Shown: positions 437-18,198 of the stretch, one piece after another
How the letters are laid out: each line of letters starts with the position of its first letter
Position numbering within the stretch: position 1 is the stretch's first letter
IMG/VR virus record: IMGVR_UViG_3300022074_000406
Span: 1 to 22,643 of that record
Length of the DNA: 22,643 nt
Reading direction: 5' to 3' (one strand)
Source: a virus
Program-made: the position numbers and the translations under genes
Notes under the pieces: model-generated
Database searches by the model: none
Told to the model about the DNA's origin: nothing
Seen by the model: the letters and a program-made list of their open reading frames with translations, nothing else

Positions 437-1723
437 TTATTTAGCGGCAGCAAAAGATGGAATGTGAGCTTTCCAAGTATTTCTGTAATAAGAGTCCCTT
501 ACAATTGCACTTACTTCTGCCCACATACTTGGCAAGGCAGCAAAGTCAGAATACCTTTTATAATTTGTTTTACCAAAGTTGTTAGTAAAGTTTCGTTCCA
601 TAGCAACCAATACATCTTCACCACAACATTGCCAAACAGCTTTCATCTCCTCTACAGTAAGCTTAGAAATAAACTTACTTGTTCTTTTGTCAAATTTAAA
701 GAAATTGTCAATAAACCCATGAAGAACTACGGGCATAACAGCCTTGTTCAAGGTGAACGGAACAGGCTTTGCTGTTAAAAACAAATGCGACTTATGTGGC
801 CTTCTGTCATTGAGAGACTTGGTTGTTGAATGCGACTTAAGAATGCCATAGTCGTCATGTTTACCTCGGAGGATAATGGCCATGTTAGATTGTACGTGAT
901 CTGACAATTCTAATACTTCGTTAATTTTTTGTGACGCTGCAGTGAGATACTCACCAACTTCATCGTTTTTCCATAATTTCATTATTCTTTCCTCTCCATG
1001 GAGAGGCCATCTGGAAATTTCAGAGAGAGAATAATCCATATGGAATGTTAAAGGTAGAAAAACCCCTAAAAGGCTTGTTACTTGACCCATACCACACTCA
1101 ACCTTGACTTTCTCTCCGTGCATGGAAACTTGATTTTGTCGAAAACCAATATTTCTTTTATCACAATATGTCAAAGTCTTTTTTAAAGTATCAAAACAGC
1201 CATCACTGTTTACTTCACTTTTTGTTTTTTGCTTTTGAATAGCATTCGTAGCATTGGCCACTTCTCTAACTTCTTGCATTGAGTTAAACGAACTTCTTTC
1301 AACCAATTCTAGCTTTACTACTTTTTCTGTAATATTTGGATTGGCGTTAATTGCCTTCATCACCATGTGAAGGGTATGCTGACCATCATAGTGACCAGTA
1401 AAGCCATCTGATGGCGAACAGGAAAAAGAAACTAGTGTCTTTCCCTCTTCATTTTCTGTTAACTTCAGAGAATTATCATCAATGATGGCTTTTATGCCTC
1501 TATTCTTTAGAGCAAAATTGGTATCATACTCATAGCTTTTTTGTATTGCTTTAGCTATTTTTGTTTTTGTATCAACATCTCTAGGATTACCTCCTTTTGG
1601 AATTCTATCCAAAGGATACTGCTTTGATGGTATCACTGCACAGATATGTGATTTAGAACCATTACTGCTTTCAATTACAGAAATGGACTTACTGCTCTGC
1701 AGTGGGAATGTTATATTTGTCAT
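437..1723 (-). CDS. AIPR/DGQHR-like protein (abortive-infection phage-resistance family)
   Basis: The 428-aa protein shows the signature order of AIPR-family proteins (PF10592 type). These are FALKNRGIKAI near residues 70-80 (the conserved NRG segment), HYDGQHTLHM at 111-120 (the [ND]GQ[QH]T core, also like DGQHR-domain proteins), and VANATNAIQKQK at 155-166 (the ATN.Q segment). AIPR members are known mainly from bacterial abortive-infection loci and defence islands; their biochemistry is poorly settled. Here the gene lies between a gp32-like ssDNA-binding protein gene and the recombinase, with a terminator on each side. The ATG at 1723 has AAGGAG upstream. Possible roles are counter-defence, exclusion of other phages, or DNA metabolism; none is shown by the sequence. 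I am fairly sure of the family and not of the function. Confidence 0.65.
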   Translation of the reverse strand: MTNITFPLQSSKSISVIESSNGSKSHICAVIPSKQYPLDRIPKGGNPRDVDTKTKIAKAIQKSYEYDTNFALKNRGIKAIIDDNSLKLTENEEGKTLVSFSCSPSDGFTGHYDGQHTLHMVMKAINANPNITEKVVKLELVERSSFNSMQEVREVANATNAIQKQKTKSEVNSDGCFDTLKKTLTYCDKRNIGFRQNQVSMHGEKVKVECGMGQVTSLLGVFLPLTFHMDYSLSEISRWPLHGEERIMKLWKNDEVGEYLTAASQKINEVLELSDHVQSNMAIILRGKHDDYGILKSHSTTKSLNDRRPHKSHLFLTAKPVPFTLNKAVMPVVLHGFIDNFFKFDKRTSKFISKLTVEEMKAVWQCCGEDVLVAMERNFTNNFGKTNYKRYSDFAALPSMWAEVSAIVRDSYYRNTWKAHIPSFAAAK

Positions 1724-1819: not shown

Positions 1820-2596
1820 TTACTTACCTGCCAATTCAGCAAAAGCTTGGTCAACGGCGCTACCCTTACTACTGTAAGCAGTAGTCTCGGAGCTACGAGC
1901 CTCGGCAGAAGAGTCACCAGACATCATGTTATCAAGGATTACCTCAATCTCACGGGTAGTCTTACGCTTATCAGCGAAGAGCTTGTCAATGGTTGGTGTC
2001 TTGCTGACGATGGCAGAAGCTTCGTGCTTATCAGTAAGCAAGGGCGAAGTGTTACGACGCATCTTCAAAGTGGTCTGAGGGAACGCCCCAGGACGGTTTG
2101 GCTTCTCATAAGTAAGGCCAATATCGGTGCCCTCATCAAGGTCAGTGATATCGCCATACTCAGGGTCTAGCACATATCCAAGAAGCATCTCGTAAGCCTT
2201 CTTGCCATAGCCGTAGTACTTGACACCTTCACTCTCCTTCCCGCGAACAACAACTGGAGAGAAGTAGCGGGGGCGAACAAAAAGCTGCTTAGCAAGTTCC
2301 TTTGTGGCCTCATCCTTGGTTTCGGTGTATTCCTTCCAAAGAGAAGACGCAAACTCACAGATTGGGCAATGTTCTCCTTCATTACGCTTAGGACAAAGAA
2401 TTCCGCCCTTGTGGTCAGGAAGGTTGTAGTGGAAGAAAACTTCCTTGAAGGGATCTCCATCAGGTGATGGTACGATACGAATATCCTGCTCACCCTCTTG
2501 TGGACGGAAGAATGGTGAGTTACTACCATTTCCACCCTTGACCTCGCCCTTTAGTACGGCGAGCTTCTTACGCATTAGTTCTAGATTGATTGCCAT
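1820..2596 (-). CDS. 32: gp32-like single-stranded DNA-binding protein
   Basis: The 258-aa protein resembles T4 gp32, which coats ssDNA cooperatively and organises replication and recombination. The basic N-terminus (LELMRKKLAVLKG) fits the cooperativity element of gp32. A zinc-binding cluster follows: H62 or H76 with C68, C77 and C80 in CPKRNEGEHCPIC, matching the H/C/C/C subdomain of gp32. The aromatic-rich stretch FVRPRYFSPVVV is typical of the OB-fold core. The C-terminus ends in AVDQAFAELAGK and is less acidic than T4 gp32. The ATG at 2596 follows AAAAAGGAG. The leader contains several hairpins (listed separately). The adjacent recombinase gene supports the role. Confidence 0.85.
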   Translation of the reverse strand: MAINLELMRKKLAVLKGEVKGGNGSNSPFFRPQEGEQDIRIVPSPDGDPFKEVFFHYNLPDHKGGILCPKRNEGEHCPICEFASSLWKEYTETKDEATKELAKQLFVRPRYFSPVVVRGKESEGVKYYGYGKKAYEMLLGYVLDPEYGDITDLDEGTDIGLTYEKPNRPGAFPQTTLKMRRNTSPLLTDKHEASAIVSKTPTIDKLFADKRKTTREIEVILDNMMSGDSSAEARSSETTAYSSKGSAVDQAFAELAGK

Positions 2597-2651: not shown

Positions 2652-2677
2652 AAACTCTTAAAAGCAATTAAGAGTTT
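2652..2677 (-). repeat. 10-bp perfect inverted repeat overlapping the stop codon of the tubulin-like gene
   Basis: AAACTCTTAA and TTAAGAGTTT flank a 6-nt centre, and the TAA stop at 2668 lies inside the repeat. The stem is AT-rich and lacks a clear U-tract, so it is at best a weak terminator. It may instead be an RNA-processing or stability hairpin between the tubulin-like and ssb genes. Confidence 0.5.
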
Positions 2678-3507
2678 GATTGTACTGCATTAGTATGGGC
2701 AATGCAGAACCCAAAGTCAGAATCTGTATTAGATTCGTATATTGCATACGACAGATTCTTGAAAGCGTTTCTTGGTTTGTTTTTTAATGTATCTACCAGC
2801 TTCTTGTGGAGAGTGCCATCTGTTTCCAAGCGGTCGCTCGTTATACACACATAGTAACTGGTGTCGCGTGCCATGTCAAGCTCATAGAACATTTTTTCTG
2901 ACAGGTTTTGAGGGCTAACCATACCAAATGTTCTGATTCTCTGGACCTCAGACGGATTGCTGAGATTACCTATGAGAGGCTTCTTATTAGCAAAATAATT
3001 CATGTAATGAATTACATAATAAATAGTCTGGTTGAGGGTTGAAAAGTAGTTTTTGATTGGCACATTACCAATTATTTCTTCGACTTTTGTGTTAGATATG
3101 ATGGTCATATTGTGGAATAAACCAGACCTTGTATACTCCTGCAAAATACCAAAAACAGCATTTTCTTGGAGCTTTGCCTGACCGGACAAAAGCTCAATGT
3201 CAGGCTTTACATAGAAAATCTCTATCTTCTTGTCTTTTACTTGTTCAAGTATACCCAAAGCATAATTTGAACAAAAGGATGACCCACAGAGGATGACCTG
3301 TATGTGTTCGGAAATAGCAGTCTTACATGCTGTAAGGTCTGGAATGTGATTCTCACATTGTTCGGGAGTTGAAGCAGACTCTAACCGAATATGGTTATCT
3401 TCATTCTCCTCTTGGGTCGTAAAGTTTACTATATTATAGTTTTTATGTTCTTGGAACAACGATGCAATATTCTTGCCCGCTGTTCCGATACCAAAAATCG
3501 TAATCAT
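2668..3507 (-). CDS. Divergent FtsZ/tubulin-like protein
   Basis: The 279-aa protein appears to follow the FtsZ/tubulin layout. It opens with MITIFGIGTAGKNIA (the first glycine loop, compare FtsZ GIGGGGSNA). VILCGSSFCSNYALGILEQV at 71-90 sits where the GGGTGTG box and its helix should be. IEIFYVKPDIELL then resembles the FtsZ strand before the EG.R helix, and MTIISNTKVEEIIG resembles the 'vvipNdrLl' strand and helix. The G-box is degraded and the catalytic T7 loop (NxDxxD) appears replaced by GNLSNPSEV, so GTP hydrolysis may be lost or altered. It is shorter than FtsZ (about 380) and PhuZ (about 315). The start codon overlaps the polymerase stop as ATGA, implying translational coupling. Fold assignment is by pattern only. 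Confidence 0.45.
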   Translation of the reverse strand: MITIFGIGTAGKNIASLFQEHKNYNIVNFTTQEENEDNHIRLESASTPEQCENHIPDLTACKTAISEHIQVILCGSSFCSNYALGILEQVKDKKIEIFYVKPDIELLSGQAKLQENAVFGILQEYTRSGLFHNMTIISNTKVEEIIGNVPIKNYFSTLNQTIYYVIHYMNYFANKKPLIGNLSNPSEVQRIRTFGMVSPQNLSEKMFYELDMARDTSYYVCITSDRLETDGTLHKKLVDTLKNKPRNAFKNLSYAIYESNTDSDFGFCIAHTNAVQSNS

Positions 3508-4706
3508 AGGTTTAAATCTTTCATTTCTAGATAATTCTTACCAGCAGTGATGTTGGTCATAAAGTTACCAAGCTTGGTATCAGCAAAAATACTCTTTAGT
3601 TCTGGTAAAAGGTCTCTGTCCTCGTCGGAAAAGTCAATAACGACTTCATCATGCATGAGGTGGGAGACATAGGAGGCTCGGCCCTCCAACGCCTTACTTA
3701 TAGCCACTGCTCGGTCGAGTGTCAAGTCATTTGTAGTGCTCTGCACAAGATAGCTCAAAGCACGTTGATCATCGACTTCAATTGTTCTGTTAAACGGGTT
3801 TGTGACAAAACCATCTACATAATACTTCTCCAAGACAGTCTTTCTGTTGTAGATACTTTTCTCAAAGGTTGTATCTCTCGGGCTATAAAGCCAAGTAAAG
3901 AAGCCAACTTTGGCTTCTTCTCTGTCTATTCCTTCTTTACCCATCAAAGAACCACCAAAAAGGTGTCTTGAGTTCCAATCATGGATATCTTCTTGTGGCT
4001 GCTCTTCCCCAAGAAGACCCAGAAAGGTTCTCACATCGGCTCCGTTGTAATCAAAGGAAATAAACCAGTCGTTATTGGGCTTCAGAAGCTTTCTGAGCTT
4101 CTTCTCCATAGAGAGTAGACCTTGACCCTTGGTGGTGGTCGTAAGGCGTCCTGTGACTGCTCCATAGAGATTATAATGAAGGTATGGCGGCGTGTCAAGT
4201 ATTCTTTGTACCTGTGGTCTCGCCCTGTGAGACACAAAGAGACCTCTACAGCCATCTGTATTGAGATTCAGCTTTTGATTGGAAATATCAACAAGAAGTT
4301 CGTGAATTTTGGCCATATGATCATGGTTTTTTGGTTTCTCATAAGTCTCAAACACATGCTGAGATATTTGATTTTTAATTCCACACCAATCAAGTAAGAA
4401 TCTGTGTGGAACAAGGTCAAAAAAGCATACTTCTTCCATTGGAACATTGGCTATACTGAAAGCCTTCAGATATGCCTTAAACTTTCTAGTTAAATCTTTA
4501 AGTTCAGGCCCAAGCTCTTCTGGGCAAACAGATTCCAGCTCTGCTCCTGCAGTATAAATCCATGCATACTGTGTATTTGTGTTTCTAACCGAGGAAGAGG
4601 CTTTCCAAGTTTTAGTTAGCCCTTGTGGGATACCTTCAAAAGATAATTTACCATCAGTAAAAACACCAATGCATTCTTTTTTGTCATCAAGTGTCTGAAA
4701 AAGCAC
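3504..4706 (-). CDS. Minimal family-A DNA polymerase without an exonuclease domain
   Basis: The 400-aa protein carries the family-A palm and fingers. TGRLTTT is at 185-191 (compare TGRLSS). Motif A is FDYNGADVR (218-226) with catalytic D219. Motif B is R262...K266...Y274 in REEAKVGFFTWLYSP. QSTTND is at about 322-327, and motif C is HDEVV (352-356) with D353. The residue equal to Klenow E710, the ribonucleotide steric gate, appears to be Asp224. There is no room for a 3'-5' or 5'-3' exonuclease, since only about 150 residues precede the thumb/TGRL region. The start is GTG at 4706, immediately after the TAG stop of the preceding gene, with GGAG five bases before. It is coupled to the downstream tubulin-like gene. 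It could be the replicative enzyme or a repair/gap-filling enzyme. Confidence 0.85.
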   Translation of the reverse strand: MLFQTLDDKKECIGVFTDGKLSFEGIPQGLTKTWKASSSVRNTNTQYAWIYTAGAELESVCPEELGPELKDLTRKFKAYLKAFSIANVPMEEVCFFDLVPHRFLLDWCGIKNQISQHVFETYEKPKNHDHMAKIHELLVDISNQKLNLNTDGCRGLFVSHRARPQVQRILDTPPYLHYNLYGAVTGRLTTTTKGQGLLSMEKKLRKLLKPNNDWFISFDYNGADVRTFLGLLGEEQPQEDIHDWNSRHLFGGSLMGKEGIDREEAKVGFFTWLYSPRDTTFEKSIYNRKTVLEKYYVDGFVTNPFNRTIEVDDQRALSYLVQSTTNDLTLDRAVAISKALEGRASYVSHLMHDEVVIDFSDEDRDLLPELKSIFADTKLGNFMTNITAGKNYLEMKDLNL

Positions 4707-5879
4707 CTAAACTCCATTTAGTTGTTTAATTCTTTCTGTTAAAGAGCCAGAAAGTTCATAAGGTTTGCTAAGAAAAAGCTCAACTTTAAAAATAGCTCTG
4801 GTTCTGTCCACCTTAGCCTCACTGAGCATGTTTTTCTCTATAACCACCCGATCATATTCGGACAACTTAATTTCTTCTTCTCTCATTCTCATTTTAAGAT
4901 ACAATTTTAAATATTGTTCTTGAGTTACTTTAGTTAAGTCAGGATTACCTACAACTCTTTGTTGTTTTAAACTTCCATCACCACACTCACCTACAAAGAA
5001 AAAATCTTCTATTAAGGTAAGAGCCATGGTGTTTATAGAATTGATAAAAGATAGATAATTTTGTTTTATTCTGTAATTAAATAATCTGTTAAGAACAGAA
5101 TCAGTTGTAGATAATCCATATCTTGAGGCAGCATTAAGCATTTCAACACTTGCAAGATCGGCAGTTATACGCCACGGTACATCTTTGTCTACCATGAAAC
5201 CAAACGATTTGCAAGTATTAACATAAAATTCCCAATTTTTACTATTATAGAAATTTTCTACTTTTTCTTGATCGTTAACAAAATCTAAATCAGCTATTTC
5301 TATAGATAGGCCAGAGATTAAAGGTGTAGCAAATTTACTTCTTATGAAGCCTTGCAAAGTGACTGGTCTATCTTTACTAACAACATCAAAATAGTTGTCA
5401 ATCTCGTTTAAAAAATCCTCAAAAGAGACAATTTTTTTATTTTGCTCTCTAATCGCATTCCCAATTGACAGCCTAAGATCCGTAATATAAGATTGATAAA
5501 GCTGATCTACTGATGTGTAAGCATTGTAGACTTTCAATTTAGACAAATACTTGTCTGAGGGTGAAATTTTACCTATCAAAGAACATTTTTCAAACTGTCT
5601 TGCTAAAAGAATAAATTGATCAACAACAAAATTTACTGCTCTAAATGCTGCTGTTCTTTCTTCTCCTATAGGAAGAGTTTTTAAATTGTTTAATCTGTCC
5701 ATCAAAACAATTGGTACAAAATTTCTATTGACTTTTCCATAAAATCTTTTTTCAGCAAAGTTAAAATCAACAAAGTTAGAATATTTAGCAGCTGTTTCTT
5801 GAGCTTTAACTTCATAATTTATTCTGTTAAAAAACATTTCTTTAGAATTAAACAGGTTCTTTTCTTTATAAATACTCAT
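4707..5879 (-). CDS. Uncharacterised protein between hub and polymerase genes
   Basis: I do not recognise this 390-aa protein. It is rich in Asn, Lys and Phe, soluble in appearance, with no signal peptide or membrane span. Helical stretches occur near the middle (MLNAASRYGLSTTDSVLNRL) and at the C-terminus (KLYLKMRMREEEIKLSEYDR). The start ATG at 5879 lies 2 nt after the stop of the 1016-aa baseplate gene and has no good Shine-Dalgarno, so translation probably depends on re-initiation from that gene. Its own TAG stop is followed directly by the GTG start of the polymerase. Position suggests a virion or tail-assembly protein, but a replication role linked to the polymerase cannot be excluded. 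Confidence 0.6.
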   Translation of the reverse strand: MSIYKEKNLFNSKEMFFNRINYEVKAQETAAKYSNFVDFNFAEKRFYGKVNRNFVPIVLMDRLNNLKTLPIGEERTAAFRAVNFVVDQFILLARQFEKCSLIGKISPSDKYLSKLKVYNAYTSVDQLYQSYITDLRLSIGNAIREQNKKIVSFEDFLNEIDNYFDVVSKDRPVTLQGFIRSKFATPLISGLSIEIADLDFVNDQEKVENFYNSKNWEFYVNTCKSFGFMVDKDVPWRITADLASVEMLNAASRYGLSTTDSVLNRLFNYRIKQNYLSFINSINTMALTLIEDFFFVGECGDGSLKQQRVVGNPDLTKVTQEQYLKLYLKMRMREEEIKLSEYDRVVIEKNMLSEAKVDRTRAIFKVELFLSKPYELSGSLTERIKQLNGV

Positions 5880-5881
5880 TT

Positions 5882-8800
5882 TTAATTACCGGTAACAGTT
5901 GCACATTTTGGTGTTCCATTAACATTACTACCAATTTGTTTTCTCTTGGATGGGTCGGCGTTTACATCTCTAGTATCTGTGCTGGCAACCCATCTAGCAG
6001 TCAACTTTGTCTCAGATTCGCCAGGGCCAAGTGAATGTTCAACTTCAATTACCATACAATAACCACCAATACCTAAAACACTTAAATCAAAACTTTTACC
6101 ATTAAAAGTCAAATTGTTGGCTGATGGGTCGAAACTTTTTGGATCAACATAGATGTATGTACCGGGGAAAATATTAAAGTTACCGAAAGTGGTGATGTTT
6201 ACATCATAAACATCAATTAACTGCCTGAGACCATCAAAACCTTCTTGCTCAAATCTAACTTCAGGTAGTCCAGGAGCATTAGTTCTTTGTAGAGAAATAT
6301 TCTTTATACAACCATCTGGTCTTCCACCAAGGAAATGGTAGATGGCAGACCCCATATTTGTCTCATAATCACCAGTGAGTTTTTCATTTGGTATTAATCT
6401 ACCAGCATTAAAACTAAGTATGAATTTTTCATCTTTAGGATTACCTGTTACTCTGGGATCTGATTTTGGTCCCGAAATGCTTAGTAAAGGCTGTTGAGGC
6501 ACTAGTGGAGAACCTTTGGAAACTGTGGTCGTATAGAAAATTTCTCCGGGGCCACTTGTTGGTTCAGCCACAGTGTACCTATCTGCATCATTGTAAGATG
6601 TAAAAAAGTTTTGCATTAGACTTGTTCTTTGTGAAGTATCGTGTTTGTAACACGAAGAGTCATTGAGCATTCTAACCAAAAAATCATTAAAAAAGTCTCT
6701 ACAAAAAGCTACCAAAGGATAATCCGTTTTATCAATTGAAAGAATCTTATTTGTGATCCAGCCAACAAAGTGTTTGAGTGATATTGGTATGTGGCCAATG
6801 TTTACAGAATGGTAACCAGTAGGTGTAGCACCAGCAGCATTAGGGTCATAAAGCTCCACAGGTCCCAACAATAACCTAAACTTATCAAAAATTGCTTTTT
6901 GTTGAGGATTTTGATTTATAATAGGAGTGATAGTTTCAAAAATAGTATTAAAGAGGTCTCTTACGTGAAAATAGATTATGTTTTCTTTTGAAATATCATT
7001 AATTTGTTTTTGAATTTTACTATTACTAGAAGAACCAGTTCCAACGCTACCTGTAGCGGCATTTACTATGGCTGTTGAAGATCCCGCAGTACTTGAACCA
7101 GCAACTTTTTTGCTACCTGTTCCTAGAAGTGGGGGCTTTGTTATTTGATAAGTTGGTCCCTCTGAGAGGGCTTGTAATAATTCGATAGTTGTAAGTGGCA
7201 AATAATAGAGTCTGTTTTTAGCCAACATTGTTTGATGTATTGTAGCTAATTTTTGTTTTTTGTATTTGACTATGTTTGCACCATAGTTTTTTCGGATCTC
7301 ATCAAGTTCTTTATTTATTTTTTCAGCCTGTGAGGCGGATACGTTTTTACATTTTTCAGTTTCTTTGGCAGCAATTTTTGTATCAAAGTCTGTTTTAGCA
7401 TCTTTTATATCTTGATTAGCTAAAACATCAAAGTTTGGTTGCTCAAAAAAATCATCAATAAAAGAAAAATATTCAATTGTAAAAGTAACTGATCCCTGAT
7501 CATCTAAATCAAAAGAGTGCCGTACAGGAGTTAGATTAAGGCTCATAAAAGATTCTTTTAAAGCGTCAGAACCTGTTTTAGAAAAAAAGTTTGGAACATT
7601 TGTTCTAATTGGCTTTGCCCATCCAATGACTGCTTTTAAGCGAAAATTTAACATTTGGTTGGGGTCATACTTCATTGAACTAACACCACCAGTTTTTAAA
7701 GCTAAATCAAGATATCTAAATTTTTCTTTTTTTGATGTGTCAATATATCTTTCTCTTGAAAGTTCACTGAAGTTGTTGGCTTTTATTTTTAATGTCGCTG
7801 TTATTGATCTTTTAACAGCAAAAGGGTTGCTTCCGTTTAGTTTACACGAGAAAGAACTAATACCAACTCCAAAACCCCTCATTTTTTTACTATTTAACAT
7901 CTCTAAGGGGTCGCCTGGATTACCGCTTGAGTCAATTATATTGAAATAATTATCTTTTACAGAGTTAGATTCAAATGGAATCTCAAACTCTTTTCTATTT
8001 TCAACATTTGTTGTAACTTTGAATAATCTTATTTGAGGCTGTAAAGAAGATAATTCATGATTTTTTATTTCAAATAGATAGCGCTGGTTTGGGTATTGAG
8101 TTAAGGCAGGAATATGAAAGAAAGGATCACTGGCTGTTAGCATCTTTAAGTGAGGATCATTATTGCCTAAAAGAGGAGGAGTTGCTGGAGGGTTTAGTTT
8201 GTATTCTTGTACAAGCTCAACTATGTGATTTAACAGAATACATTGTTCTTTATAAAGGATTGTGTCCGCTACACTTTCATCAGCCAATAGCTGAGCATTT
8301 TTTAATTGTGCCTTATTAGCAGCTAAGGCGGGACCAGTTGAGGCCGCAGTAGCAGCCGCAGCAATCGAGCCAGAGGCCTGTATAGCAGCGATTTCGCTTG
8401 CTATTTGGGCTGCAGTCTTTCCTTGCTGATCAAGCTGTTCTTTAACTGCTTCTTCAATAGCAGAAACATCAGGATTACTAAGACAATCTGTATATAGAGC
8501 ATCAAGTTCTGCCTCTAATTTTACTATTTTTTGGTTTACTTCAGCAATCTTGCTGTCTTCTAAACTTTCTTTTAAGCTTTTTGCCTTTTCAATATTGGCT
8601 GGTGTACTACTTGGATTGTTAATAACAACACCAGTCAGGGCTCCCACTACAGCATTGATACTACCGCCAGCAAAAGAGTAAGCATCTTTTTTAGCTTGGA
8701 AATCAGCTGAACTGTTTGTGCTATTTAGTACATTTTCTGGTAAAGCTGAGGGTAGCGGCAGTCCCATTCCGGTCAATGAAACAGCAGAATTGAAAGCACT

Positions 8801-8932
8801 AGAGATATCTGTTAAGTGCTTGTTATACTTTGATAGTTCATTAATCAAGTCTTGATTAGCACGAGAAGAAAGAGCATCTTCTTGCTTTTCTTGGCACTCT
8901 TGTATTATGATGCTTTCTAGATCAACAGACAT
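5882..8932 (-). CDS. Large virion protein, probable baseplate hub component
   Basis: The 1016-aa protein lies after the gp53-like gene in the tail cluster. The N-terminal 230 residues are helical and coiled-coil-like, with an Ala-rich segment (ASGSIAAAATAAST). A second charged helix (about 500-570, with KETEKCKNVSASQAEKINKE) and a Gly/Ser/Ala/Thr linker (about 620-650) divide the middle. The C-terminal section, with NIFPGTYIYVDP and GGYCMVIEVEHSLGPGESET near 956-975, resembles the closing beta-domain of gp27/gpD-type hub proteins, in which a tube-like domain ends in a strand describing 'V..v.H....g...T.l.a'. The ATG at 8932 follows the preceding TGA by one base, with AAGG upstream. Hub assignment is inference from position and the C-terminal pattern. 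Confidence 0.5.
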   Translation of the reverse strand: MSVDLESIIIQECQEKQEDALSSRANQDLINELSKYNKHLTDISSAFNSAVSLTGMGLPLPSALPENVLNSTNSSADFQAKKDAYSFAGGSINAVVGALTGVVINNPSSTPANIEKAKSLKESLEDSKIAEVNQKIVKLEAELDALYTDCLSNPDVSAIEEAVKEQLDQQGKTAAQIASEIAAIQASGSIAAAATAASTGPALAANKAQLKNAQLLADESVADTILYKEQCILLNHIVELVQEYKLNPPATPPLLGNNDPHLKMLTASDPFFHIPALTQYPNQRYLFEIKNHELSSLQPQIRLFKVTTNVENRKEFEIPFESNSVKDNYFNIIDSSGNPGDPLEMLNSKKMRGFGVGISSFSCKLNGSNPFAVKRSITATLKIKANNFSELSRERYIDTSKKEKFRYLDLALKTGGVSSMKYDPNQMLNFRLKAVIGWAKPIRTNVPNFFSKTGSDALKESFMSLNLTPVRHSFDLDDQGSVTFTIEYFSFIDDFFEQPNFDVLANQDIKDAKTDFDTKIAAKETEKCKNVSASQAEKINKELDEIRKNYGANIVKYKKQKLATIHQTMLAKNRLYYLPLTTIELLQALSEGPTYQITKPPLLGTGSKKVAGSSTAGSSTAIVNAATGSVGTGSSSNSKIQKQINDISKENIIYFHVRDLFNTIFETITPIINQNPQQKAIFDKFRLLLGPVELYDPNAAGATPTGYHSVNIGHIPISLKHFVGWITNKILSIDKTDYPLVAFCRDFFNDFLVRMLNDSSCYKHDTSQRTSLMQNFFTSYNDADRYTVAEPTSGPGEIFYTTTVSKGSPLVPQQPLLSISGPKSDPRVTGNPKDEKFILSFNAGRLIPNEKLTGDYETNMGSAIYHFLGGRPDGCIKNISLQRTNAPGLPEVRFEQEGFDGLRQLIDVYDVNITTFGNFNIFPGTYIYVDPKSFDPSANNLTFNGKSFDLSVLGIGGYCMVIEVEHSLGPGESETKLTARWVASTDTRDVNADPSKRKQIGSNVNGTPKCATVTGN

Positions 8933-14967: not shown

Positions 14968-17900
14968 TTAATCTTCGAAAGAAGCCCCAGAAGAAGCAAC
15001 CACAAAGTCAATTGCGATAAACTCAATTGCCTTAGCTGGCTTAATCATAATCTTCGCGTAAAGAACATTCTGATCAACAAGGTCAGGTGTGGTAGTGGTT
15101 TCATCAAGGATTAGTCTATAATCAGTGATACCGAATCTGCTCTTAGTTCCGACAAGTAGTGGCTCAACGAGACCCTTGAAACGGTTCCAAGTTGCTTGTA
15201 CGTTCTGTTCAAAGAGAACTTGGGTTGATAGGACTGAGATTTGCTTCTTGAGGTAGATAACAAGTCTGCGGACGTTGATTCTATCGAGAGCAGATGGTCT
15301 CTCCTGAAGAGTCTTCTGGCCGAAGAGAACGATGCCAGTGCTTGGGAAAGAAGCAATTGGGTTAATTCTAGCTTCGTAAAGAAGGTCTCTGTCCTTAGAG
15401 CGTAGTCTCTCGGATACTCCAACGACTGGGATGCCTGCTGCTCCATCTGAGAGGCCACCACGGTTAAAGCCGGCTGGTGCAAACCAAATCTCAGAAGCGC
15501 GCTCAGAAGAGGCTAGAGTGCCCATCATTGCGACAGTTGGTGGAACCCAAACATTCTGTCCGGTAGCAGAATCTCTTGTCTGTACCCATGGGTAGAAAGT
15601 AGCGCCATATGAGGAGTCAAGCTGTCTTCTCTTAAGTGCGTTAGCTGCATTTCTTGGGGTACCTGCAACTCTAGATTCTCTAGTTGGGTAAGTTGTAGCA
15701 TCACCCTCATGCGGTGGAACATAGACACTTGCAAGGTCTATAAGAGCAAGTGCATCGGCACGAGACTCAGCAGTTCTGACTAGATGGTCATTAAGCGCAT
15801 CATTGGTAAGGCCAGGAACTGCGATTAGGTTTGTGTCGATAAACTCAGGATCAGCAATTGTATCAATCGCTCTTTCGTAAGTGTAGTACACGTAGTTGTT
15901 CTTGCTGGTTGAGGTTGTGCTCATTAGTGAGTTAGCAAGTGGATCTGGCTTGGTGATATCGAAGCCATCGAAGCCACCCCAGAAAGGAGCAGTAAAGCTG
16001 TCATATCCAGCATCTAGTAGCTGTGAAGCACTGAGTGGGCTAGCTAATGTCTGGCGTGAACCAGATTCGTAGTAGTAATCTCCTGAATCTACTCTGACAT
16101 CGTTAAGTGTGAAGATGCTGCTGTAAGCGTCGAAGCCGGCCACCGCAGAAGTGCTAGGATCATCAGAGAATCCAGCCTGTAGTAGTCTGTGCATATCTGC
16201 AACACTGTTATCAGCGATTAAGGCAGATCTTTCAGTGGTTGTTCTAATACCGAAGTTTGCCTGAGTTGGGTCACTAAGGCCGCCATCTGAGGCGCTGAGT
16301 CTTAGAGCAACACTTGGGAAATCAAATGAGCAAGTAAGTACGCCGAGTGTGGTCGCCGCAACAACGCCCTTAGCACTTCCAATTAGGCCCCAGCGGTCGC
16401 CACCCATTTCAGGTGGAACACTAGCACTACCTAGTAGAAGGGTGCTTGACAAGTCTGCAGAAGCGCTTACTGAAGATACACTCTTAATACTTGGTGGCAT
16501 GTAGAAGCCGAATGGTAGGTAAGACGGATCAAGCGCACCATCATCCATGTCTGGGTTGGTCTCTACATAGAAGTAACGAGAAACGTTGTCATACTCGCCG
16601 TACTCTCTGAGGTTTCTTTCAGTTTCAGACCAAACGTAGTACTTGTTACCAATGACCTTGGAGATAAAGTTTGGAGAGTTAGGGTTTAGGTTAAGGTTGT
16701 CGAATCTCTCAACAATAGATGGGTTTACATCGTTATCACCCAACGCTCTTACTACAACTGAGAAGCTACCGTATGGATCGGTGAAGGTTGTGCTAAGCTT
16801 GATTCTTTCAATGGAAACCTTGATGTTCTTGTGAATCCACTCACCGTGGCCTCTACCCTTAAGTCTAAAGAGCTTTGGAAGGTTGGCTGCGTTGAAGCTA
16901 CCTGCAGCACCTAGGTCTTGTGGGATGAACCAACCAGCAACAGCTTCTCTAGCTGACTGAGCCTTCATGTTGTGTAGGCCCTTGGTAACATCGGAGTTGA
17001 GAGCAAGAGGAATAATAGTGCCAAAGGTGGCGGTGTTTATAAGGTTTGCATCTCTGAGAGATTGTTCAAAGCTTTCACCAAGCCAGTAGCTTCTTTCTGT
17101 AGTTGTTGGGTAGTAGTCACCGTTTCTAGATAGAAGTTGTGGGTTTGTGCTTAGCTTGTTACGGATGAAGTTCTCAGATTGATAATCAAAGTTAAAGAAC
17201 TTCTCCTCGATACCAAGGGTACTGGATGAAATTCTTAGTTTAAATTCTTTGTTAGCATCGGAGGCCAACATGATGTGTGAGCCACTGACTGTTCCACCAC
17301 CAACATCAGAACCAGAAAGTTGTACAATAGTACCAGCTTGAGCGTAAAGGACTGCGGCTAATTTTCCTGCTGTTCCATAAGCATTTGAACCACCAGTAAA
17401 CGCACTAACACTGGCAAAACCGGAGCTAGCATTATTAGATAGTGCTCTATTGCCATCTGCGCCAGGAAGCTGGGTTAAAGTGACGGTATCGTCAGTCACC
17501 GAGGTTGTGGAAATAGCAACACCAATGTTGCCGCTATGGCAAGTCTCAATGGCAGTTTTCAAGGCTGCAGAAATAGTGGCAACAGCACCATCTGCCTTAT
17601 ATTTTGGAGACGTAGTATTAGTAACTGTGGAAGTGTGGGCTGCATATGCAAGAGTAGTTCCTGCCCTGTCAATAATAGTCAATGTACTAGCCAGATGAAC
17701 GGCCCCGGTTATCACTATTGTGGCTGTTGCCTGAGCCAAGCTTGCGCTTGGGAAAAGGAACACGCCAAATGCTCCACCGTTGTTCGCGAGAGTCGCAGAA
17801 GGACTTGCAGTGGTAGCACCACCGTCACCAGCAGGAGTTGACCATCCGGCTCTAGTTCCTGTTGCAGCAGTTGGGTGCTCATGTCCGAGAAGTCGAATGT

Positions 17901-18198
17901 AAGTAAGTGGAGCTACCTGAGCATCAAGGTATCCCTTAGCTGCGTAGGTGCCGTACATTGGAGACTGGAAGTTACCTTCTCTAGCAATGTCACCACCGCC
18001 GTTTCCTGGCACAGTATCGCCATAACTTGTGACGTACTCAGAAAATGATGGCACTCTGGTAGGCTGCATTCCTAGGCCTCTTACAGATCTTCCGATAACT
18101 GTAGCGCCGATAGCATCAGGCTCTCTTGGTCTAAATGAGTTGTCGATCTCGTTGATAAATACACCGGGAGAGACAAACTTGAAATCTTTAACTGGCAT
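14968..18198 (-). CDS. 18: Contractile tail sheath protein, gp18-like, enlarged
   Basis: At 1076 aa this is far longer than T4 gp18 (659 aa). The N-terminus FVSPGVFINEIDNS is the canonical sheath start. The C-terminal 150 residues hold the conserved polymerisation domain: FPSTGIVLFGQKTL, INVRRLVIYLKKQI, FEQNVQATWNRFKGLVEPLL and IMIKPAKAIEFIAIDF. An inserted Ala/Thr/Gly-rich beta domain at about 152-272 splits the GGAFGVFLFP and GKLAAVLYAQAG segments of the handle. The sheath surrounds the tube and contracts on infection. A sigma70-like promoter (18238-18265) and a GAGGAG Shine-Dalgarno precede the ATG. The gene looks higher in GC than its neighbours, in line with high expression, though I did not compute this. 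Confidence 0.93.
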   Translation of the reverse strand: MPVKDFKFVSPGVFINEIDNSFRPREPDAIGATVIGRSVRGLGMQPTRVPSFSEYVTSYGDTVPGNGGGDIAREGNFQSPMYGTYAAKGYLDAQVAPLTYIRLLGHEHPTAATGTRAGWSTPAGDGGATTASPSATLANNGGAFGVFLFPSASLAQATATIVITGAVHLASTLTIIDRAGTTLAYAAHTSTVTNTTSPKYKADGAVATISAALKTAIETCHSGNIGVAISTTSVTDDTVTLTQLPGADGNRALSNNASSGFASVSAFTGGSNAYGTAGKLAAVLYAQAGTIVQLSGSDVGGGTVSGSHIMLASDANKEFKLRISSSTLGIEEKFFNFDYQSENFIRNKLSTNPQLLSRNGDYYPTTTERSYWLGESFEQSLRDANLINTATFGTIIPLALNSDVTKGLHNMKAQSAREAVAGWFIPQDLGAAGSFNAANLPKLFRLKGRGHGEWIHKNIKVSIERIKLSTTFTDPYGSFSVVVRALGDNDVNPSIVERFDNLNLNPNSPNFISKVIGNKYYVWSETERNLREYGEYDNVSRYFYVETNPDMDDGALDPSYLPFGFYMPPSIKSVSSVSASADLSSTLLLGSASVPPEMGGDRWGLIGSAKGVVAATTLGVLTCSFDFPSVALRLSASDGGLSDPTQANFGIRTTTERSALIADNSVADMHRLLQAGFSDDPSTSAVAGFDAYSSIFTLNDVRVDSGDYYYESGSRQTLASPLSASQLLDAGYDSFTAPFWGGFDGFDITKPDPLANSLMSTTSTSKNNYVYYTYERAIDTIADPEFIDTNLIAVPGLTNDALNDHLVRTAESRADALALIDLASVYVPPHEGDATTYPTRESRVAGTPRNAANALKRRQLDSSYGATFYPWVQTRDSATGQNVWVPPTVAMMGTLASSERASEIWFAPAGFNRGGLSDGAAGIPVVGVSERLRSKDRDLLYEARINPIASFPSTGIVLFGQKTLQERPSALDRINVRRLVIYLKKQISVLSTQVLFEQNVQATWNRFKGLVEPLLVGTKSRFGITDYRLILDETTTTPDLVDQNVLYAKIMIKPAKAIEFIAIDFVVASSGASFED

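Follow-up and report, generated by a model that had tools for sequence, protein, structure and literature searches.

A predicted degenerate tubulin encoded in overlap with the DNA polymerase gene of uncultured T4-type phages

The viral DNA stretch analyzed here (22,643 nucleotides, below called the window) encodes TUB1, a predicted degenerate tubulin/FtsZ-fold protein whose gene overlaps that of a reduced DNA polymerase. Judged by their gene content, the carriers of TUB1 are a large group of uncultured T4-type phages with the capsid protein gp23 and genomes of about 190 kb. This well-represented group has two tubulins, one of them (TUB2) intact and strongly conserved, the other degenerate and fused by overlap to a polymerase gene. 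Taken together, the data suggest that these viruses have a skeleton of two tubulins that is connected with the copying of their DNA.

Most of what is known of phage tubulins comes from jumbo phages that form a nucleus and from plasmid-like phages. The initial annotation had assigned them to jumbo and plasmid-like phages only, which needs widening, since a group of about 190 kb with gp23 and without a detected multisubunit RNA polymerase carries them as well. The superfamily itself, single phage tubulins such as PhuZ and TubZ, and divergent FtsZ-like families (PMC2875224) were already known. The passages on tubulins in two jumbo-phage overviews (PMC7824862, PMC13282480) mention no polymerase operon with a degenerate tubulin and no phage with two tubulins, and neither was found in the literature searched, which covered few subscription journals and no preprints. 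We consider both the TUB1 family, with its tubulin fold, and its arrangement to be new.

The TUB1 gene and its distribution

The TUB1 gene occupies positions 2668..3507 of the minus strand, as initially annotated, starts with ATG and encodes 279 amino acids. Scans of IMG/VR metagenomes with TUB1 profiles and a polymerase profile yielded at least 224 TUB1-encoding loci; as this number is a lower bound set by the scans, the family is larger. In a comparison with the nearest relative (89% identical), 20, 10, and 98 changes were counted at codon positions 1, 2, and 3, respectively. The number of loci, the dominance of third-position changes and the independent recovery of TUB1 in a scan that started from the polymerase show that the open reading frame did not arise by chance. 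TUB1 is a real, old gene under purifying selection.

No TUB1 was detected by tblastn in a cultured-phage collection, by profile search in seven phage records, T4-type relatives among them, or by pattern scan in a genome collection covering 84,980 species. A weak tblastn match in Aeromonas phages (E 0.3) was dropped; its site corresponds to annotated HslV-like peptidase genes. No significant match to TUB1 was obtained in profile searches of Pfam, PHROGs, PADLOC and PDB sequences. The Pfam tubulin/FtsZ profile (PF00091) matched none of the TUB1 members scanned and in these genomes recognized only TUB2, and the PhuZ family phrog_4733 gave no match to TUB1 in the PHROG searches. A weak match to phrog_28172 (E 0.002-0.009) was treated as chance because this family matched none of 11 phage records, among them three genomes of the TUB1 group.

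TUB1 is predicted to have a complete tubulin/FtsZ fold

An AlphaFold2 model of TUB1 was calculated from 60 diverse family members and replaced an earlier model from 6 sequences, which was poor in the C-terminal half. The model had a pLDDT of 89.6 and a pTM of 0.89, with no segment below 50. In a Foldseek search against the PDB it matched 895 chains at E <0.001, and the best 50 of these were all FtsZ or TubZ (E about 1e-13 to 1e-11, top match 2e-13). VIA-align gave Z scores of 23.5 for CetZ (3zid; 256 of 279 residues), 22.2 for TubZ (274 residues), 21.5 for FtsZ (269 residues), and about 21 for eukaryotic and Asgard tubulins; the matches always spanned residues 1 to 279 of TUB1, C-terminal domain included. 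The best match in a viral structure library was an uncultured phage "FtsZ" of 452 amino acids. All parts of the two-domain superfamily fold are present in the model, i.e., the nucleotide-binding domain, the core helix H7 and the C-terminal sheet domain. The latter (residues 191-279; positions 2671..2937, minus strand) was modeled with strands at residues 191-197, 204-206, 215-223, 251-259, and 265-272 and helices at residues 224-229 and 233-242.

The initial annotation had read the protein as tubulin/FtsZ-like and named a simple Rossmann fold without a tubulin C-terminal domain as the result that would speak against this. Structure prediction and fold search support the tubulin reading, with full-length matches to FtsZ, TubZ, CetZ and tubulins, and because these matches include the C-terminal domain present in the model, a Rossmann fold alone does not account for the protein. 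It is barely credible that the model misleads and that the protein is actually another Rossmann-like nucleotide-binding protein: the lack of a significant sequence match to the Pfam tubulin/FtsZ family and weak Pfam matches to GARS_N and NADP-binding folds would agree with it, but it is opposed by the whole-length Z scores of 21-23.5, by the Foldseek result and by a match of the 6-sequence TUB1 profile to FtsZ at residues 133-163 (E 0.09). We regard the tubulin fold, as modeled, as close to certain. HMM-HMM comparisons of TUB1 with TUB2, E. coli FtsZ and phiKZ PhuZ were not significant (for PhuZ, hhalign gave E 0.02 over 75 residues only), so that the kinship of TUB1 with the superfamily rests on structure. 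Going by its model, TUB1 adds a tubulin-fold family that sequence profiles missed entirely.

Nucleotide-binding and T7-loop motifs of TUB1

Motif conservation was counted in 60 representatives of the family with <90% identity. A T1-like glycine loop (GIGTAGKN, residues 6-13; positions 3469..3492, minus strand) is conserved, with G6 in 59/60 and G8 in 60/60 representatives. The T4 "G-box" (GGGTGTG) is degenerate and reads GSSFCSNY (residues 75-82; positions 3262..3285, minus strand), and residues 71-82 of the window protein are VILCGSSFCSNY. The earlier reading of this box as LCGSSFC was correct, and the loss of the box holds throughout the family: G75 (60/60) is followed by S/A-S-x-S-S-N-Y, and the box has thus lost its other glycines. 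With S77 in 58, S79 in 57, and N81 and Y82 in 58 of the 60 representatives, the family box can be written as GSSxSSN(Y) and differs from the canonical T4 glycine box GGGTG(T/S)G. P102 and D103, located after the strand that follows the box, as well as E143 and K152 were found in 60/60.

The segment YFSTLN at the start of H7 (residues 154-159; positions 3031..3048, minus strand) has F or Y at position 155 and N159 in all 60 representatives. We take these two residues to be the counterparts of F183/D187 in FtsZ and Y224/N228 in beta-tubulin; the corresponding positions of TUB2 are Y and N. As FtsZ, beta-tubulin, TUB2 and TUB1 all have, where H7 begins, an aromatic residue and four positions later an Asn or Asp, the guanine pocket appears to be kept in TUB1, an assignment made by motif spacing.

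The T7-loop region (residues 177-190; positions 2938..2979, minus strand) reads PLIGNLSNPSEVQR in the window protein and contains no aspartate, which confirms the initial reading. Its catalytic DxxD pair is absent in 60/60 representatives, so this loss is also family-wide. The sole acidic residue noted in the region is E187, with E or D in 53/60 representatives. Helix H8 is not predicted; in the model, strands follow directly after H7 and there is no helix between residues 175 and 190. Based on the conservation of box and pocket and the loss of DxxD and H8, TUB1 would have an altered but conserved nucleotide-binding face and a reduced neighbor-activating face. Invariant residues made up 13/60 positions on the nucleotide face compared with 40/279 positions overall, a borderline enrichment (p 0.06) to which we give no weight.

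The polymerase-TUB1 operon and its phage group

The stop codon of the polymerase gene (3504..4706, minus strand) and the start codon of TUB1 overlap in the sequence ATGA at positions 3504..3507 (minus strand), in agreement with the four-base overlap originally described. An in-frame ATGA, GTGA or TTGA overlap was present in 217 of 222 loci, and translation of the two genes is probably coupled through it. Wherever the contig reached (151 loci inspected), the gene order was constant: a baseplate/tail gene, a gene for an unknown 390-residue protein, the reduced family-A polymerase gene, TUB1, and genes for a gp32-like single-strand DNA binding protein (SSB), UvsX/RecA and a flap-type nuclease. 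In the scan with the polymerase as query, TUB1 was located downstream in every locus with a continuing contig; the single locus lacking it is on a contig that ends just past the polymerase gene. The arrangement extends well beyond the window and forms a fixed operon in a large group of phages.

The polymerase of 400 amino acids was assigned to family A by a Pfam DNA_pol_A match below the cut-off, a match to phrog_17 (5e-10) and a match of residues 175-372 to the Taq and Klenow polymerases. Its palm motifs were recognizable only from about residue 175 onward, and residues 1 to about 170 gave no match in the searches made. A 3'-5' exonuclease domain was not detected in family or structure-sequence searches, which found the palm region only. 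In cultured phages, only distant matches to the palm region were obtained (about 25% identity). T4-type phages classically have a family-B polymerase. For a family-A enzyme, the polymerase of the window is very short.

Downstream of TUB1, in a conserved position, lies the gene for the gp32-like SSB (1820..2596, minus strand; PF08804 1.3e-17, phrog_1192). Upstream of the polymerase gene, the conserved gene for the 390-residue protein (4707..5879, minus strand) and a gene for a protein of 1016 amino acids (5882..8932, minus strand) occur in the same order across the loci; the latter probably encodes a baseplate/tail structural protein, as inferred from the adjoining tail genes.

T4-type gp23 was encoded in 7/7 large records of the group, and the large multisubunit RNA polymerase subunit PF00562 was absent from the same 7/7 records, with positive controls. 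A chimallin search of the group with a single-sequence query and no positive control was empty. Three records of the group have a size of 190-196 kb, and the window carries a T4-type tail sheath gene.

A second, intact tubulin in the same phages

A search with PF00091 identified TUB2, a protein of 377-383 amino acids, in every tested record of at least 130 kb; the match was above the Pfam cut-off in seven of seven large records. In 11/11 records reaching that far (G001, G002, G004, G008, G010, G015, G021, G022, G024, G025, and G027; TUB2 is cut by the contig end in G004 and G010), TUB2 lies on the same strand as TUB1 and 37-45 kb upstream of it. Records with only one of the two genes end before the expected place of the other. 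The record containing the window ends 19 kb upstream of TUB1, and TUB2 in the window's own phage is therefore a prediction; the nearest record with both tubulins is G001 (191 kb), whose TUB1 is about 56% identical to that of the window.

TUB2 begins with an acidic tail of about 60 residues, which is conserved, and has an intact glycine box (AGGGGGTGSS) and the T7 loop SFDSKDLE, which hhalign pairs with VDFADVRT of FtsZ; its sequence match to FtsZ has an E-value of 3e-9. At least 160 relatives were found. In 25 loci, TUB2 overlaps the stop codon of an SbcC-like gene by ATGA. Given this overlap and that of polymerase and TUB1, both tubulins are, in many phages of the group, preceded by genes for replication or recombination. 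Across nine records, mean identity was 87% for TUB2, 57.5% for TUB1 and 55% for the polymerase. In this respect, TUB2 resembles a filament subunit, and TUB1 resembles a part of the replisome. TUB1 distances tracked those of the polymerase (r 0.72) better than those of TUB2 (r 0.41), in 36 non-independent pairs and with polymerase and TUB1 sharing history as adjacent genes. Coordinates of TUB2 include L222:1297-2448 and L223:1309-2445, and further copies are found in 80 loci (L232-L311). The only tblastn match to TUB2 in cultured phages was the FtsZ-like gp138 of Bacillus phage G (L231:2914-4044; E 8e-4).

Possible functions of TUB1

We tentatively favor, while rating it as short of probable, that TUB1 is a non-polymerizing, nucleotide-binding pseudo-tubulin of the replisome that links the polymerase to TUB2 filaments. 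TUB1 would be made in step with the DNA polymerase via the stop/start overlap. It would retain the tubulin fold and the guanine pocket, with the phosphate box and the T7/H8 surface lost. Tubulin needs the T7/H8 surface to make the neighboring subunit hydrolyze GTP, and with both elements lost, TUB1 by itself probably does not assemble into self-stimulating filaments. The most likely picture is that it would bind nucleotide without hydrolyzing it, or be locked, and sit with the polymerase. Its nucleotide face may then dock under the T7 face of TUB2, like gamma-tubulin at the minus end of microtubules, and TUB1 in this position could start TUB2 filaments at replicating DNA or hold them there. 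This reading is favored by the fold, the pattern of lost and retained motifs, the operon and the presence of TUB2 in the same phages; the 87% conservation of TUB2, as expected of a filament subunit, was also counted for it. Against it, the divergence of TUB1 follows that of the polymerase better, which fits a role with the polymerase only as well or better, and E/D187 could serve as a T7 acid. The wider picture would be a cytoskeleton of two tubulins: the pseudo-tubulin, produced together with the polymerase, would cap the filaments of the active tubulin or nucleate them and so tie replication physically to a virus-built filament in phages that are not nucleus-forming. We consider this less likely than not. 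If TUB1 and TUB2 cooperate, phages would have their own version of the way in which active and end-capping tubulins divide labor, and replisome and cytoskeleton would be directly linked, which is testable with two small proteins.

The main rival to the adaptor reading, rather unlikely in our estimate, is that TUB1 re-uses the tubulin fold as an accessory subunit of the polymerase and has no cytoskeletal role, perhaps acting as a processivity or fidelity factor of the 400-residue enzyme. Proteins of other origin recruited by polymerases have precedents in thioredoxin with T7 polymerase and a tRNA-synthetase-like protein with mitochondrial polymerase. The strict overlap (217/222 loci), the position inside the replication operon, a divergence equal to that of the polymerase and best correlated with it, and a polymerase of which only the palm region and no exonuclease domain was detected all agree with such a subunit. 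A pure scaffold, however, need not keep invariant guanine-pocket residues, nor would it call for a second tubulin in every genome reaching far enough. If TUB1 were instead a polymerizing tubulin with an unusual phosphate loop, its own filaments could position replicating DNA like those of PhuZ or TubZ. The complete two-domain fold, the apparently kept pocket and E/D187 (53/60) would permit this, but we consider it improbable in view of the replacement of GGGTGTG throughout the family, the loss of DxxD in 60/60, the missing H8, and a conservation below that of TUB2, unlike that of a filament subunit. Very improbable is a role of TUB1 as a decoy, in which it would associate with the FtsZ of the host and so stop the cell from dividing. 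A subunit with one good face only would cap filaments, and FtsZ-binding phage proteins such as T7 gp0.4 and lambda Kil are known, but these are small and unrelated, and TUB1 has only about 10-15% identity to any FtsZ and is fixed in a replication operon.

Comparison with known tubulin systems

PhuZ of phiKZ-like nucleus-forming phages is, like TUB1, a phage-encoded protein of the tubulin/FtsZ fold in a replication-related setting, but it keeps the glycine box and polymerizes, whereas the TUB1 box is degenerate and phrog_4733 does not match it. The phages for which the literature describes PhuZ are jumbo phages that form a nucleus, whereas the TUB1 group has a gp23 capsid protein and no detected multisubunit RNA polymerase. 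In phiKZ, several kilobases separate gene 39 (tubulin) from gene 50 (DNA polymerase), in contrast to the overlapping genes described here. The TubZ/TubRC partition systems of plasmids and plasmid-like phages also tie a tubulin to DNA, and TubZ is among the best structural matches of TUB1 (Z about 22); TubZ, however, has an intact G-box and T7 loop, and the identified neighbors of TUB1 (polymerase, SSB, recombinase, nuclease and tail genes) include none called TubR or TubY. FtsZ and CetZ share the fold, CetZ 3zid being the closest structure, but are cellular proteins with about 10% identity to TUB1, which has lost their G-box and DxxD.

FtsZl1 and FtsZl2 are divergent superfamily members that occur beside a conventional FtsZ; FtsZl1 possibly does not form filaments, and it has no recognizable tubulin C-terminal domain, a coiled coil and vWA neighbors (PMC2875224). 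TUB1 resembles them as a divergent member beside a conventional one, but with 279 amino acids it keeps the tubulin C-terminal domain and adjoins replication genes instead of having vWA neighbors or a non-tubulin C-terminus. Gamma-tubulin, which keeps the G-box lost in TUB1, is a functional analogy only, for the filament-end role proposed here; kinship was compared at the fold level only. TUB2 shares phage, superfamily and, through the SbcC-like gene, a replication/recombination setting with TUB1, and differs from it in its GGGGGTGSS box, DSKD T7 loop, acidic tail of 60 amino acids and 87% conservation.

Other genes of the window

The gene after the SSB gene (437-1723, minus strand) matched PF10592 (AIPR) with 26.1 bits, compared to a Pfam cut-off of 25. 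The name AIPR refers to phage resistance by abortive infection, and going by this name it would be a defense-type gene inside a phage replication operon. AIPR-like genes were present in few of the related loci only, and PADLOC gave no match. The tail sheath protein (14968-18198, minus strand) is unusually long with 1076 amino acids, and its matches to known sheath proteins are mainly in the second half.
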